Assembly (NCBI GenBank): GCA_025464625.1 | Contig: JAOAUZ010000001.1 | Location: 774,848 to 838,847, forward strand | Source of the DNA: Rickettsiales bacterium | GTDB taxonomy: Bacteria > Pseudomonadota > Alphaproteobacteria > Rickettsiales > SXRF01 | Length of the DNA stretch: 64,000 nt | Direction: 5' to 3' | Shown here: positions 3,450 to 26,697 of the stretch, piece by piece | Numbering within the stretch: position 1 is the first letter of the stretch | Layout of the letters: each line of letters begins with the position of its first letter | The notes under the pieces: generated by a model | Databases searched by the model: none | What the model saw: the letters and a program-made list of their open reading frames with translations, nothing else | What the model was told of the DNA's origin: nothing | Program-made: the position numbers and the translations under genes

Positions 3450-4469
3450 GTGTATTCTATGTTGGTTTATCAACCAAACAAAGCTCGTAAGCACATGACA
3501 AAACCAATGATAATTGAACACCAAATACCCGAAACACCAGACAAAGCAATCTCTGCGGAGAAGGTTTTTGGTGTTAAATGGGGCGCACCACTGCCTGCAT
3601 TTTCAATCAAAACCGAGCATGTGCCTGATATAGACCCTGATTATTATTTTGAGCCAAATGCAACGCGCGCGATACTTGCTGGTTTTGTATATAACCGCCG
3701 CGTGCTGGTGCAAGGGTTTCATGGAACTGGCAAATCAACGCATATTGAACAGATTGCAGCACGCCTCAACTGGCCGTGTATCCGCGTAAATCTCGATAGT
3801 CATATCAGCCGTACCGACCTTATCGGGCGCGATGTAATCATGCTCAAAGACGGCAAACAAATAACCCATTTTCAGGAAGGCATCCTGCCTTGGGCTTTAG
3901 GGCGACCAATGGCATTGGTGTTTGATGAATATGACGCGGGACGACCAGATGTTATGTTCGTTATCCAGCGCGTTCTGGAAGCACAAGGAAAACTGACTTT
4001 GCTGGATCAAAACCGCGTTATCACTCCACACCAATCTTTCCGAGTATTTGCTACTGCCAACACTGTTGGGCTTGGTGATTCAACTGGGCTTTATCACGGC
4101 ACACAACCAATCAACCAAGGGCAGATGGATCGCTGGAATATTGTGGCAAGCCTTGGTTATCTGAATAAAGATATTGAATATAAAATCATAAGTTCTCGCG
4201 TTAAAAATCTCTCGCCAAAACAAAAAGAAAATTTAGGGGCGATGATAGCTATGGCAAATCTCACCCGCGAAGGTTTTATGAATGGCGATTTATCAACTGT
4301 TATGTCACCACGCACTGTTATCAACTGGGCAGAAAACATGGTGATTTTTGATGATGTACACCTTGCCTTCCAACTAACATTTCTCAACAAATGTGATGAG
4401 ACTGAACGCTCTATTATCGCCGAATATTACCAGCGTTGCTTTAATAAAAATATCGCGGAACTAGTATAA
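3450..4469 (+). CDS. cobS: Cobaltochelatase subunit CobS (AAA+ ATPase)
   Basis: CobS is the AAA+ ATPase that works with CobT, and in cobalamin makers with CobN, to insert cobalt into hydrogenobyrinate diamide. The protein has the family's N-terminal FGV..PAFSIKTEHVPDID region, Walker A GFHGTGKST (residues 89-97), Walker B-like ALVFDEYDAG, and a later ATANTVG sensor region. GTG 3450 has AAGG 7 nt upstream; ATG 3495 (MTKPMII) would give a length nearer the family norm. The stop codon overlaps the next gene's ATG by one base (TAATG). No cobN is in the window, so the true substrate is uncertain. Confidence 0.93.
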   Translation: MYSMLVYQPNKARKHMTKPMIIEHQIPETPDKAISAEKVFGVKWGAPLPAFSIKTEHVPDIDPDYYFEPNATRAILAGFVYNRRVLVQGFHGTGKSTHIEQIAARLNWPCIRVNLDSHISRTDLIGRDVIMLKDGKQITHFQEGILPWALGRPMALVFDEYDAGRPDVMFVIQRVLEAQGKLTLLDQNRVITPHQSFRVFATANTVGLGDSTGLYHGTQPINQGQMDRWNIVASLGYLNKDIEYKIISSRVKNLSPKQKENLGAMIAMANLTREGFMNGDLSTVMSPRTVINWAENMVIFDDVHLAFQLTFLNKCDETERSIIAEYYQRCFNKNIAELV

Positions 4470-5533
4470 TGTATAAAAGCAATGTCAAAAGTTATAGTTT
4501 TATAGACCTGTTTGCAGGAATTGGTGGCATAAGAACTGCTTTTGAGAGACAGGGTTACGATTGTGTTTTATCAAGTGAGATAGATTCTGATTGTAGGGAT
4601 ATATATTACAAAAATTATGGAGAAATTCCTTTTGGTGATGTGAGAGAATTATCAAGTAATAGCATTGGAAAGTATGATGTCCTAACCGCTGGTTTCCCAT
4701 GCCAACCATTTAGTATTTGTGGTAGGAAAAGAGGGTTTGAAGATACAAGGGGAACACTCTTCTTTGAAATTTGTAGAATTATTAAAGATACAAATCCAGA
4801 AGTTGTATGTTTAGAAAACGTAAAGCATTTGCTCCATCACGATTCTGGAAGGACTTTAGAGTTGATATTATCATCTCTCGAAGATTTGGGATATATAACA
4901 ACTTATAAGGTATTAAATGCTATAAATTTTGGTGTCCCTCAAAACAGAGAGAGGATTATCATCATAGGCTCAAAAAAATGTGAATTTAATTTCTCCAAAT
5001 TGAAAACAACTCCTAATGTAGCAAAACTAGTTGATTTTCTTGAACAATCAGGTGATTTTGAATATTTAAGACCAGAAGAATATACATTTATTGAAAAACC
5101 AACAACGCAACCAACTGGATTAATTTTCTGCGGTTATCGTAATAAGGGAATATGGAAAAAAGGAATTAGACCGAACACCGAACATTTATCTAGGGTTCAT
5201 AGACAACCAAATAGAATTTATTCTGTTATGGGTACTCATCCAACTATTCCTTCACAGGAAACATCTGGGAGGTTTTTTATCTATATTCCTCAAGAAAATG
5301 CTGTTAGAAAACTAACTATTAAGGAATGTTATAAAATAATGGGATTTGATTATGACTTCAAAATATCTTCAAATAGGGGAAATGCCTACAAACAGGTCGG
5401 TAATTCTGTCTGCATTCCAATGATTGAAGAAATATCTAAAGAGATTAGAGCGCAACTATTGGAATTAAATGAGTCTATTTATGAACCACGCAGAAAAATT
5501 AATAGAGTTGTACAACAAGAGCTTGCTTTATGA
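4469..5533 (+). CDS. DNA (cytosine-5) methyltransferase of a type II RM cassette
   Basis: This 354-residue enzyme transfers a methyl group from S-adenosylmethionine to C5 of cytosine and should protect host DNA from the adjacent nuclease. It shows motif I (DLFAGIGGI, residues 11-19), motif IV with the catalytic Cys (GFPCQPFS), motif VI (ENV), motif VIII (QNRERI) and motifs IX-X near the C-terminus (GNSV). The target-recognition region lies around residues 215-290. Its start overlaps the cobS stop by one base and its end overlaps the nuclease ORF by 65 nt. The AT-rich codon use contrasts with cobS and cobT and suggests recent transfer. Target sequence unknown. Confidence 0.95.
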   Translation: MYKSNVKSYSFIDLFAGIGGIRTAFERQGYDCVLSSEIDSDCRDIYYKNYGEIPFGDVRELSSNSIGKYDVLTAGFPCQPFSICGRKRGFEDTRGTLFFEICRIIKDTNPEVVCLENVKHLLHHDSGRTLELILSSLEDLGYITTYKVLNAINFGVPQNRERIIIIGSKKCEFNFSKLKTTPNVAKLVDFLEQSGDFEYLRPEEYTFIEKPTTQPTGLIFCGYRNKGIWKKGIRPNTEHLSRVHRQPNRIYSVMGTHPTIPSQETSGRFFIYIPQENAVRKLTIKECYKIMGFDYDFKISSNRGNAYKQVGNSVCIPMIEEISKEIRAQLLELNESIYEPRRKINRVVQQELAL

Positions 5534-6587
5534 TTTACCTAAAAAAAACAAGATTGATAAAAAATATACAGGCTATTTAGATTGTATATCAGACAATTCC
5601 TTGTCTCAAAAAGGAGTGTTTACTGTTCTCGTTACCCTTGTGATTCACAAAATACTGCATCCAACGCAAGATATAAGACTTCATCAATCTGGCATGGAAG
5701 GTGGCTTCTCAGGAAGAACTATTGACACTCAATTCATAACTCCAACACTGAAAAGGCTAAAATTGCCATCTATGGCGGAAAGCGGTTGGCTTACACGCTC
5801 TCTTGAACAACCATACCCTTATAGCCTAGATTACAACGGAAAAATCAGCAACAGACAGGTCAAAGAATCTTTTTTGGGGGTATTGGATTTTGTTCAAAAC
5901 CATCCTGATTATTCCGAATCTGTTATGATTTATCTTCTATCAAAAGTTGGGCTAAAGATTAAAGAGAATCAAGTATCAATAACAAAAATATCAAATCCTG
6001 ATTTCCTAGACATAAACTCCATATTGAACATATTGAAGGAACATTTCTCTTCTAAGTATAGCACTCATGGAGGCTCTAAGTTACCAGTGATTGCATTGTA
6101 CGCAATCTATCAAGTTATGGTTAAAGAATTAACAAGATATTCTAATTGTGAATTAATTGCACTTGGTAGTCATACAGCATCAGATCTAACATCAAAAACT
6201 GCTGGTGATATTCAGATTTTTAAGAATGGAAAACCATTCGAAATTTTAGAAATAAAGCATGATAAGTGGATTGATGAAAATACTGTCGCCATAGCAGTTG
6301 AGAAAATCCAAAAGTATAATCCAAGTCGTTATTACATTCTGTCATTCAAGGGAATTTTGGATAGTGATAGAAAACTGATAGAAGAAGTTATAAATAATAC
6401 AAAAATAGAGCATGGTTGTCAGATAATAGTAAATGGGATTATGGATACCATTAAGTATTATTTGAGACTCATAAACTCATCAAAAGATTTCTTGGATAAT
6501 TATATTCAAATCGTAGAATCAGACGCAGAGTTAAAACCAGCTCATAAGGAAAAACTTATAGAAATTATTAACAGCTTACAGTCATGA
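5469..6587 (+). CDS. Putative type II restriction endonuclease
   Basis: This 372-residue protein directly follows a C5 methyltransferase. A PD-(D/E)XK-like active site is visible as D247 in TAGDIQIF, 14 residues before E261-I-K263 in EILEIKHDK. The stretch [16 protein letters not shown], followed by [15 protein letters not shown], looks like a conserved signature of a nuclease family, but I cannot name the family with confidence. ATG 5469 (weak TTGGA upstream) lies inside the methyltransferase end; ATG 5481 is an alternative start. Its stop overlaps the cobT start as ATGA. It is AT-rich like its partner. Confidence 0.82.
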
Positions 6588-8356
6588 ATCAAGCCACAGA
6601 CACATTAAAACATGCCATAACTGCTGCCACCCGTGCGCTTTCTGGCAAGCGTGATTTGCAGGTGGAATTCACCAACGGCGTTTCAAGTGCTGATGTTGTT
6701 TTACCTGCGTTGCTCGATATTCGCCTCTCTAAAACAATTTCTTCGATAAGAGGACATGCAGATCAAGCCGCGCTTTTTATCCGCCACCATAACCCAACAA
6801 TTCATCAAAAATTCCGTCCCGAACAATCAAGCAGCGCAACATTGTTTGATGCTCTGGAAGAAATACGCATTGAAACACTGGGCAGCGAGGATATGGAGGG
6901 CGTAAAATATAATCTATACCGCCGTTTTGAACTTGAATGTATGCAGCAGGCACTAAACCCAGATAATATACCGCTGCTAGAAAAAATTAAAATTCAAGCG
7001 CGAAAGCATATTCAACATCTGCCAATTCCAGATTTTATCGCTGGCGCGCTCGAGAAACCCACCAGCGAGGAAAATTCTATTCTGCCACTTCTGAAACAGA
7101 TGCAGTTTCATGTGAACAGCCAACAGAAATTTGCAAATCTGGCGATTGAGTTAATCGATGTTATTACGCAGGCAGCAAAAAATGGTGACGATGACGAAAC
7201 TAAAAACAATGATGCCGATACTAATAAAAACGAATCAAACAAAGAACTCTCGACGCAACAAGATAGTGAGCAAACCTCGGTTTCAGATGAAGAAGATTCC
7301 CAAAAATCTGAAAGCATAGTTCAGGCTGGTTCACCACCAAGCGAACAAGCCATGTTGCAAAAGGGTGAGGATAGCAATGTGGATAACCGTTCACCCTATC
7401 CTTTTAATCACTTTGAAGCAAAACCAGCGGAGAAAGTCTATCACGCCTACACTACGCGCTTTGATGAGGTAATATTAGCCAGCCAACTTGCAAGCGAAAT
7501 AGAAATAAAAAACCTACGCCTTCAGCTTGATCAAAAACTCACCCAATTTCAAAGCGTCACCTCACGCCTTGCTAATCGCCTGCAACGCCTGCTCCTTGCC
7601 AAACAAGCGCGGACTTGGCTTTTTGATGAAGAAGATGGGATGATTGATAGCCGTAAATTATCGCGGGTTATCACCCAACCGAATTACGAACAGTTTTACA
7701 AGCGGGAAAAAGATACTGATTTCCGTGATACAGTAGTGACATTGCTTATTGATAATTCTGGTTCAATGCGCGGTCGCCCTATTACCATTGCCGCCCTGTC
7801 CGCCGATATTATCAGTAGAACGCTTGAAAGATGCGGAGTAAAAGTAGAAATTTTAGGCTTCACTACCAGAGAATGGAAAGGTGGAATCTCTTACAAAGAA
7901 TGGGTGAAAGCTGGAAAACCGCCACGCCCCGGTCGTCTCAATGATTTACGACACATAATCTATAAACCAGCCGATGTTAATTGGCGGAAGTCCAATAAAA
8001 ATATCGGACTGATGCTAAAGGACGGCTTACTCAAAGAAAATATCGATGGTGAGGCAATATTATGGGCGTGCGACCGCCTGCTGGCACGCCCTGAGCAACG
8101 GCGCATCTTAATGGTGATTTCTGACGGCGCGCCAGTTGATGATAGCACTCTCTCCTGCAACACGGGTAGTTATCTGGATACACATCTGCGCGAGGTTATT
8201 GCCAAGGTGGAAAAGCAACTGCCTATTGAACTGGTCGCCATTGGCATTGGGCATGATGTCACACGCTACTATAGCCGCGCTGTAACAATTTCCGAGATTG
8301 ATAAGCTAGGCGAAACTATGACCGAGCAGCTGGTGAGTTTGTTTAGTAAGCATTAA
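6584..8356 (+). CDS. cobT: Cobaltochelatase subunit CobT (VWA protein)
   Basis: CobT partners CobS in the chelatase complex, as in the two-subunit AAA+/VWA machines related to BchI/BchD. The 590 residues comprise an N-terminal CobT domain, an acidic Ser/Glu/Asn-rich linker (about residues 200-265), and a C-terminal von Willebrand A domain with the metal-binding MIDAS motif DNSGSM beginning at D390. The start overlaps the stop of the nuclease gene. The stop overlaps that of the convergent methyltransferase gene at 8353-8356. CobS and CobT were presumably adjacent before the RM cassette arrived. The cellular substrate is unproven without cobN. Confidence 0.93.
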
Positions 8357-24263: not shown

Positions 24264-24275
24264 TTGCGGGCATAA

Positions 24276-24325
24276 GTGACTTATAGTCCGTAGACTTATT
24301 ATCAACATATCGTGATTATGTTTAC
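24276..24325 (+). promoter_or_regulatory. C-protein operators OL and OR and leaderless C/R promoter
   Basis: OL is GTGACTTATAGTC at 24276-24288. OR is a weaker GACTTATTATC at 24293-24303. A -35-like TAGACT (24291-24296) and a -10-like GATTAT (24314-24319), 17 nt apart, place +1 about 7 nt later at the ATG (24326). OL lies just upstream of the -35 element and OR overlaps it. This is the activation-then-repression layout known for C.AhdI and C.Esp1396I. The roles of the sites are inferred. Confidence 0.75.
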
Positions 24326-24592
24326 ATGGCAAAAAATAATATCAAATCTTTAAATCTTCTCGTTTCTCAGGTCATTCGTCGCCTTAGAAATGATATGGGT
24401 ATAAGCCAAGAGGAATTGGCAGACAGGTGTGGTTTAGATAGAACATATATTTCTGCTGTTGAGAGAGGGCGACGAAACATCACTATTGGTAGCTTATCCA
24501 GAATAGTTGTTAGCATGGAACTAACTGAACACGACTTCCTTCAGGAATTAATTAATCAAATATATATTGCTGAAGAAGAAGCCGATGAATAA
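24326..24592 (+). CDS. RM controller (C) protein, XRE/HTH_3 family
   Basis: This 88-residue protein has a helix-turn-helix domain (about residues 12-70) including SQEELADRCGLDRTYISAVERGRRN, close in pattern to known C proteins such as C.Esp1396I (which share LDRTYIS and an ERxxRN step). C proteins dimerise on C-boxes to delay restriction enzyme synthesis after entry into a new host. The operators upstream of this gene and of the methyltransferase gene support this role. It overlaps the nuclease gene by 8 nt. Confidence 0.9.
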   Translation: MAKNNIKSLNLLVSQVIRRLRNDMGISQEELADRCGLDRTYISAVERGRRNITIGSLSRIVVSMELTEHDFLQELINQIYIAEEEADE

Positions 24593-25340
24593 TGAATATA
24601 TTTTTAATGGCACAAAAGCGTATAAGATGCTTAGAGGTCATGAGATACCATCGCAAAATTTTGTAGATGCAGCCATTAAATTTGATGAGCTTATACAAAA
24701 ATTTCATGAATTTGAAATTGATATATCATCTCTCTTAGGAATGCGTAATCTCAGTGCATTTGTTGGTGAACTTTATGCAAGCTGTCTTATTAAAAGCACA
24801 GGTAAAACCTTTAGAAAAAACCCCCATCAGGATGGATATCCTGATCTTTTGCTAATGGATGAGATAGGAGAAAAACTATGGAAATCACTTGATTCAAGGC
24901 TACGAGAAAAATCACCGTTTAGCCCTTTTGCAACTGGCGGTATTGAAATTAAAGCGACATGTGGCGATATTCCAAGTGCAAAACAATTCACCAAAAAAGG
25001 GATTATTAAGCCAGATATTGGAGACCAAAGAATTACTTATGTAAAAAATGTTAACTGGAAAGCTCATCACAGAGACACCAACAATTTGTTAGGTTTGTAT
25101 TGGGATTTCATTAATAAGAAACCAAAAATAGTTGGTTTGTTTTACTGCAACGAACTATTGGTAGATGACTGGGGTAAAATTGTTCATCCTACTGATGGTG
25201 GTGGGAGGACAACATCCGTTTCTATTATGGGAAAGAGCGGTATTAGAAAAATGTGTTCATCTTGGGTATGTATATTAAACGACTCACGCTACATAGCTTT
25301 CTTCGAAAGATATGGCAGTATTAAAATTACTTCTGGGTAG
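24585..25340 (+). CDS. Type II restriction endonuclease (C-controlled RM)
   Basis: This 251-residue protein starts at ATG 24585 (MNNEYIFNGTKAY), inside the end of the C gene and preceded by GAAGAAGAAG; an upstream in-frame TTG is less likely. A PD-(D/E)XK core is visible: the acidic residue in GYPDLLLMDE is followed after a helical insertion by GGIEIKATCGD (E-x-K). No specificity can be assigned. It is placed between a C gene and a convergent C5 methyltransferase gene, with 57 nt of 3' overlap with the latter. It is AT-rich compared with mfd. Confidence 0.88.
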   Translation: MNNEYIFNGTKAYKMLRGHEIPSQNFVDAAIKFDELIQKFHEFEIDISSLLGMRNLSAFVGELYASCLIKSTGKTFRKNPHQDGYPDLLLMDEIGEKLWKSLDSRLREKSPFSPFATGGIEIKATCGDIPSAKQFTKKGIIKPDIGDQRITYVKNVNWKAHHRDTNNLLGLYWDFINKKPKIVGLFYCNELLVDDWGKIVHPTDGGGRTTSVSIMGKSGIRKMCSSWVCILNDSRYIAFFERYGSIKITSG

Positions 25341-26621
25341 TAATTCCTTCTTATCCATTGCATTAATTATATGGTTGAAGATTATAGCCAAACCTTTTGG
25401 TGGAATACTCTCACCGATTACCTCACGAATGGTTTTATCTGAAACAGGTTTGCCATCTAGTCGTTCCCAATGATAATTAAAATCATTCACTGTATGAATA
25501 ATAAACGCCTCTAAAAGCGATAACACCCTGTTTTGTGTAGGATGCAGCTTCTGATCACTGCATGCATAAGATAAATTTCTTGTTAAAGCACTTGCTGGTA
25601 GATCTCCTCTCATTCTTTTATATGCACTAGTAAAGCCAGACATTAAACGATATTCTCCGTCTTCTTTTACCCAAGGTCGTGGCAGTAATTCACCACATCT
25701 TTTACATCTAATTGGTGTGCATTTGTGCGCTCTATTTATTCCTTCTCCATTTTTTGAAGCAGAATGTGTTGGGTTCTCAATACAACCACAAGTAATGCAT
25801 TGATTATCAAAAGCTCCCTTGCCAGCAGGTGTTCTTGAAACCCATAAATATTTTTCTTCATCAAGTAAAGGTACGCGATGAAACGGTAAACTGGAAGTTG
25901 CAGTTTGTTTATTTTTAGCATCTAACGGAGGTAAATCAGATATAACATCAAGAACACTCACCCATTTTTTCTGTAATAAAGATGGTGACTGTGAATGCGT
26001 TGTTTCAGGCATGATGCTTCGTTTTTTTATTAGATTATCAACAATGTTCGTATCTCGTGAAAATACAGTTATCAGCCTTTGTCTTCTTTGTGGTATGCCA
26101 TAATCTGCAAATTCAACCACTTCCCATTTTCCTGTATAACCTTTAAGGCAAGAACTAAGAATTTCAGTCATAGTCGCAAAACTACCGTTTCTATCAGCAA
26201 TAATTGTTCCTGCCATTTCAGGAACATTCTCAATTACAATTATTTTTGGCTTGAGCTGATTGGCAATCTCAATAACTTCCAATATAAGAAGATTTCTTTC
26301 ATCAATTTCAGGCTTTATCCCTGCTCGTATGCCAGCAAGAAGTTTTCCTCTGCCATTTTTAGACATACCTTGACACGGGGGTGTAGCAAACAAAATATCA
26401 AGTTGGCGACCCTTTAAAGCCTCAACTGTTGAACCAATGATTTCATTTTTAAGATTTCTAATATCTCCGACAATCATATTGGTTTCAGGAAAATTTCGTT
26501 TAAACAATTCAGCACGTTCAGGCAAGTATTCGTTTGCCACTAAAACACTCACTCCTGCACTTCTTAGTGCAAGATCACCTATTCCAGCCGAAGAAAATAA
26601 ACTAATTGCATTTTTTTTCAT
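25284..26621 (-). CDS. DNA (cytosine-5) methyltransferase (C-controlled RM)
   Basis: This 445-residue enzyme methylates C5 of cytosine at the cognate site. Visible motifs are I (SLFSSAGIGDLA), IV with catalytic Cys (ATPPCQGMS), VI (VIENVPEMA) and VIII (QRRQRLI). A Cys-rich cluster (CITCGC, then CKRCGEL about 30 residues later) between motif VIII and the C-terminus looks like a zinc ribbon. I start it at ATG 26621, not at the more distant 26657, because the promoter and C-box occupy 26625-26657. The transcript should be leaderless. Its 3' end overlaps the nuclease gene tail to tail. Confidence 0.93.
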   Translation of the reverse strand: MKKNAISLFSSAGIGDLALRSAGVSVLVANEYLPERAELFKRNFPETNMIVGDIRNLKNEIIGSTVEALKGRQLDILFATPPCQGMSKNGRGKLLAGIRAGIKPEIDERNLLILEVIEIANQLKPKIIVIENVPEMAGTIIADRNGSFATMTEILSSCLKGYTGKWEVVEFADYGIPQRRQRLITVFSRDTNIVDNLIKKRSIMPETTHSQSPSLLQKKWVSVLDVISDLPPLDAKNKQTATSSLPFHRVPLLDEEKYLWVSRTPAGKGAFDNQCITCGCIENPTHSASKNGEGINRAHKCTPIRCKRCGELLPRPWVKEDGEYRLMSGFTSAYKRMRGDLPASALTRNLSYACSDQKLHPTQNRVLSLLEAFIIHTVNDFNYHWERLDGKPVSDKTIREVIGESIPPKGLAIIFNHIINAMDKKELLPRSNFNTAISFEESYVA

Positions 26622-26624
26622 AAA

Positions 26625-26657
26625 GTGACTTATAGTCAACATCTTTAATGTTGTCAA
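26625..26657 (-). promoter_or_regulatory. Methyltransferase promoter with overlapping C-box
   Basis: On the reverse strand, TTGACA (26652-26657) and TATAAG (26629-26634) are separated by exactly 17 nt. Seven nt further is the A of ATG 26621, so +1 coincides with the start codon. The C-box GTGACTTATAGTCAAC (forward strand 26625-26640) covers the -10 element, and its GTGACTTATAGTC core is identical to OL upstream of the C gene. C protein should therefore repress the methyltransferase once it has accumulated. Confidence 0.85.
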
Positions 26658-26697
26658 TTATAAATATTCTGACTAAATACTACTAATAAAATAATCA

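Follow-up and report, generated by a model that had tools for sequence, protein, structure and literature searches.

Residues T36, Y37, R46 and S52 of the controller (C) protein of the restriction–modification (RM) system Esp1396I read the DNA (PMC4041747). The affinities of the Esp1396I sites span 1–230 nM, with OR being the weakest (PMC3758141), and the operator on the methyltransferase promoter, OM, is bound at a sub-nanomolar Kd (PMC3758141, PMC4041747). Repression of the methyltransferase (M) by C is described as unusual in the Esp1396I literature (PMC4041747). Leaderless C transcripts are already known as common (PMC4824078, PMC2997769, PMC5333194). Here, we compare these systems with a locus from a Rickettsiales genome, analysed within a stretch of 64,000 nucleotides (the window).

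The cassette and its insertion site

The cassette (24264–26697, not strand-specific; 2434 bp) was delimited as the insert that separates the mfd stop codon from that of kdpD and contains the C, restriction endonuclease (R) and M genes with their control sites and nothing else. Genome comparison with the congener G003, in which mfd and kdpD meet tail to tail with overlapping stop codons, identified the empty site. The G+C content is approximately 35–38% in the cassette compared with 43–47% around it, and a close relative of M was absent from all three of the congeners examined. Neither a target-site duplication nor a mobile element was seen when the cassette ends were inspected by eye. Judged from its sequence, the cassette as a horizontally acquired, compact type II RM system under an Esp1396I-type C protein is a well supported assignment.

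The C gene (24326–24592, + strand) was identified using phmmer and PADLOC and is predicted to encode a controller protein of 88 residues. Its nearest solved relative is C.Esp1396I (3clc; phmmer 2e-13), with which it shares 42–46% identity, and the positions matching the four DNA-reading residues are conserved. Together with the PADLOC Control_protein match (7e-18), this marks the product as a putative helix–turn–helix controller that retains the DNA-reading residues. The R gene (24585–25340, + strand; 251 residues) matches PADLOC REase_II (9e-63) and shares 8 nt with the C gene, the same overlap as in pEsp1396. No family match to R was found in Pfam or NCBIfam, a profile of 73 R homologues matched none of the PDB sequences and, with R alone as the query, no relative was found among viral contigs. 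The motif P86 D87…E121-x-K123 is nevertheless invariant across the 73 homologues, and the predicted model (pLDDT 94.5) has a PD-(D/E)XK-like fold, with its best Z-score (8.6) to NaeI and further matches to SwaI, EcoRV and HincII, all at modest Z-scores of 6–8.6. A relationship of R to antibodies, raised by weak PDB sequence matches, was rejected as these were judged to be chance.

The M gene (25284–26621, − strand; 445 residues) encodes a C5-cytosine methyltransferase that is matched over its length by Pfam DNA_methylase (1e-38). It is convergent with the C-R operon, and all three frames are open. The cassette pairs a PD-(D/E)XK nuclease of a putatively SnaBI/BsaAI-like sequence family with a C5 methyltransferase, in the manner of a type IIP RM system. 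R and M share 57 bp at their 3′ ends (25284–25340), a tail-to-tail arrangement that differs from that in Esp1396I.

Elsewhere in the window, a second C5 methyltransferase gene (4469–5533) overlaps an open reading frame without a Pfam match (5469–6587). The two lie between cobS-like (3450–4469) and cobT-like (6584–8356) genes and look like another RM pair.

Operators and promoters

Three C-protein sites are predicted. The distal site upstream of C, OL (AGTGACTTATAGTCCGTA, 24275–24292, + strand), was assigned from its identity to OL of pEsp1396 and its recurrence in relatives. The proximal, weaker site OR (GTAGACTTATTATCAACA, 24290–24307, + strand) was placed by the Esp1396I OR register and overlaps the predicted −35 element; both sites precede the C/R operon. 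The third, OM (TGTTGACTATAAGTCACT on the − strand, 26624–26641), covers the −10 element of the M promoter. The original prediction that OL and the C-box of M are identical over 13 bases is borne out, as GTGACTTATAGTC occurs exactly at 24276–24288 and 26625–26637; the identity in fact extends to 15 bases (AAGTGACTTATAGTC, 24274–24288 and 26623–26637). The 1.9 Mb genome holds no other exact copy of GTGACTTATAGTC, and dinucleotide-preserving shuffles of both 100-nt stretches shared any exact 13-mer in only six of 20,000 trials. The proposed likeness to the Esp1396I operators also stands: GTGACTTATAGTCCGT, comprising 16 bases of OL and spacer, is identical to OL of pEsp1396, and the OL/OR/−35/−10 register is the same. 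Sites were scored by their matches to symmetric half-sites, a measure of similarity rather than affinity. The scores are 16 for OM, 14 for OL and 12 for OR, compared with 17, 14 and 12 in Esp1396I, where the ranking is partly circular because the half-sites were taken from Esp1396I and relatives. This similarity order, OM > OL > OR, is the one reported for Esp1396I.

In all, 84,980 species genomes were scanned with three R homologues, yielding 80 loci from many phyla. In most of these C precedes R, and approximately 50 have a related M, nearly always convergent. An OL-like site (at least 13 of 16 matches) precedes 55 of 69 C genes, a set in which the window and three Esp1396I-like plasmid systems are counted, compared with 11 of 1270 background windows. 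An OM-like site precedes 29 of the 45 M genes accompanied by C and none of the 11 without a detected C (Fisher p = 9e-5; background 7/1575 windows). Because the loci share descent, these counts cannot be treated as independent; changes of operator class on the R tree number at least eight, and those of leader class at least four. The operator layout is common to dozens of related cassettes in many bacterial phyla, and the sequence comparison suggests that OM goes with C across the R family. The relatives thereby back the earlier proposal of a third operator, namely one C site located on the promoter of the convergent M. Seven loci (L035, L043, L091, L093, L097, L100 and L106) carry another class of palindrome upstream of C, examples being GCTAATTATAGT… and …ACTATAGTTAGC; this may be a distinct operator type.

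The predicted M promoter, TTGACA-17-TATAAG (26629–26657, − strand), is as originally described and is the best sigma-70-like site in the window, being the sole one to match 11 of the 12 consensus bases with a 16–18 nt spacer on either strand of the window, although a scan that requires T as the last −10 base misses it. Seven nucleotides separate its −10 element from the ATG (26621), placing the predicted +1 on the A of this codon. The predicted C/R promoter, TAGACT-17-GATTAT (24291–24319, + strand), has eight of 12 consensus bases and ends 6 nt before its ATG (24326), again with +1 predicted on the A. It would not stand out alone; support for its position comes from the relatives. Its weak hexamers fit an activator-dependent promoter but are by themselves no evidence for one.

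No Shine–Dalgarno-like sequence was found before the ATG of C or that of M, which says little in this host because such a sequence precedes the first ATG of only eight of 45 long open reading frames in the window. OL starts 50 nt before the C start codon, and a distance of 49–53 nt, the peak of the distribution, occurs in 30 of 55 loci. Shine–Dalgarno-like sequences are found in none of 31 loci of the short class (47–54 nt) compared with five of 22 in the long class. The strongest evidence at hand for a leaderless C/R transcript is that the start codon is kept at the position where +1 falls in the OL/−35/−10 register. For M, the distance from the start of the OM 18-mer to the ATG is 20 nt in the window and in L034, L047 and L053 and 33–48 nt in most relatives; L053 repeats the promoter geometry as TTGACC-17-TATAGT-7-ATG. 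Both C and M are probably translated from leaderless mRNAs starting at AUG. Of the two putative leaderless promoters originally predicted, that of C/R has good comparative support from the spacing in relatives, and that of M draws on its near-consensus promoter and a few relatives.

Recognition site

An R homologue with 46.5% identity from Streptococcus phage phi-SsuHCJ31 (MN270268) is annotated as R.SnaBI; this link to SnaBI, which rests on the annotation of one record, led us to count TACGTA and YACGTR. The host genome contains eight TACGTA, 21 TACGTG (both strands) and 21 CACGTG, a total of 50. Two congeners contain 201, 383 and 155 (total 739) and 191, 390 and 180 (total 761), respectively, so that YACGTR is approximately 15 times less frequent in the host. 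The control hexamer AACGTA occurs 577 times in the host compared with 656 and 489 times in the congeners. In 392 kb of unmasked host sequence TACGTA is absent against 13 expected, the highest expectation among absent hexamers. YACGTR is also scarce in five carrier hosts (L031, L049, L051, L058 and L061); other carriers of the R family are low in TACGTA only or in none of these hexamers.

ACGT alone was rejected as the avoided site, as the host and G003 have similar ACGT totals and avoidance of AACGTT is not strong. Cytosine deamination was likewise rejected as the cause, since TATGTA and TACATA are at expectation. YACGTR is the site of BsaAI. The target here is likely to be YACGTR, with TACGTA possible; the avoidance is strong but not conclusive, since the other carriers have no matched controls that are non-carriers and the host has other RM systems.

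A further member of the genus, G002, avoids ACGT altogether and was therefore left out as a control. Only 20 ACGT occur in 97 kb compared with approximately 378 expected by composition, which suggests that G002 has a different ACGT-specific system. Hexamers containing CCGG, as well as GGCGCC and GTGCAC, are strongly depleted in the host relative to a congener, suggesting that several further restriction systems are, or once were, present.

Proposed circuit and known systems

We consider it highly probable that the locus is an acquired Esp1396I-type, C-controlled cassette in which M is expressed first and C/R later, C and M are probably leaderless and the target is YACGTR or TACGTA. When the cassette enters a cell, its near-consensus M promoter would fire first, leading to methylation of the host DNA, while the weak C/R promoter would supply little C. 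Binding of a C dimer to OL would then recruit RNA polymerase, and C and R would rise. As C accumulates, it would occupy OM over the −10 element and switch M off, and C/R would be capped by cooperative binding at OR, which overlaps the −35 element. The R/M pair would recognize YACGTR (or TACGTA), with M methylating its cytosine. The genes, the sequences and places of the operators, their recurrence in relatives, the empty site and the avoidance of YACGTR are observed; protein binding, the affinity order, transcript starts, timing and specificity are all points that we infer. The anatomy would fit early M, delayed C/R and then repression of both; the original statement that the full timing circuit is encoded goes beyond the evidence, as the timing is drawn from the likeness to Esp1396I.

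The surroundings of the cassette bear on how far such a switch would matter. The end of mfd lies 12 nt from OL and that of kdpD approximately 40 nt from the M −35 element; each host gene is co-directional with the cassette unit just downstream of it (mfd with C-R and kdpD with M), and no terminator-like site was found between them, so that read-through could blunt the timing. The operators might then work, yet leadered transcripts from mfd into C-R and from kdpD into M would mostly set expression, with the timing switch minor. The leadered class among the relatives is consistent with this reading, but leadered RNA may be translated poorly from C and M starts that have no Shine–Dalgarno-like sequence, and the OL-to-ATG spacing is tightly kept in relatives with other surroundings; we regard it as unlikely. 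The same starts raise a tentative idea, to which we give somewhat more credence but still less than even weight, that leaderless, Shine–Dalgarno-free C and M starts insulate the cassette: host read-through RNA would be poorly translated, and its own promoters alone would yield C, R and M. If true, this would explain both the safe landing between active host genes and the OL-to-start spacing kept across phyla.

It could also be that C/R alone is regulated, with M constitutive and its C-box incidental or a relic. That the literature calls repression of M by C unusual (PMC4041747) would favour such an arrangement, but OM-like sites track the presence of C in the counts given above, well over background, and OM has the top score among the three sites in the window; we regard this arrangement as very improbable. 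Marginally less probable still is an RM system that is inactive or decaying. The three frames are open, the catalytic motifs of R are intact and M is matched over its length; YACGTR, moreover, is strongly avoided in the host genome and not in the two congeners.

On the preferred reading of an acquired C-controlled cassette, the comparison suggests that M is commonly repressed by C across a widespread family whose enzyme pair differs from that of Esp1396I. The strict spacing between OL and the start codon offers an easy way to test, in many phyla, whether toxic genes are under leaderless control. From the avoidance comes a recognition site that can be tested for an enzyme family that Pfam does not include.

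Compared with Esp1396I (pEsp1396, NC_004936), the locus shares the 16 bases at OL and spacer, the operator and promoter register, the C-R overlap of 8 nt, a convergent M that carries a C site of its own and a related C protein. It differs in its enzymes, as R of Esp1396I belongs to the BstXI family and its M is another kind of methyltransferase, and in the position of OM, which is reported to lie over the transcription start in Esp1396I and covers the −10 element here. The OL-to-C start distance is 77 nt in Esp1396I compared with 50 nt here, which puts Esp1396I in the other leader class. The label 'Esp1396I-type' therefore holds for the operators but not for the leader. A leaderless C transcript, predicted here, is instead known from the C/R operons of PvuII and AhdI (PMC2997769, PMC5333194), and leaderlessness is a commoner feature of PvuII/AhdI-type C genes rather than a feature of Esp1396I; those systems have other enzymes, and control of M through a C site on its promoter is not their known trait. 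Plasmid p12579_5 of Escherichia coli O55:H7 (NC_017655) has a related R (32–34%) and a C5 M (39%) in convergent orientation with a C gene, but its C protein and operators (GAATACTATTGTCTGT) are of another class. The SnaBI-like enzyme of phage phi-SsuHCJ31, a homologue of R and likewise convergent with a modification methylase, is named by annotation only, and the avoidance in our host extends beyond TACGTA to YACGTR. The C-controlled RM design was already known; what is new here is the avoidance of YACGTR together with the R.SnaBI-annotated homologue.
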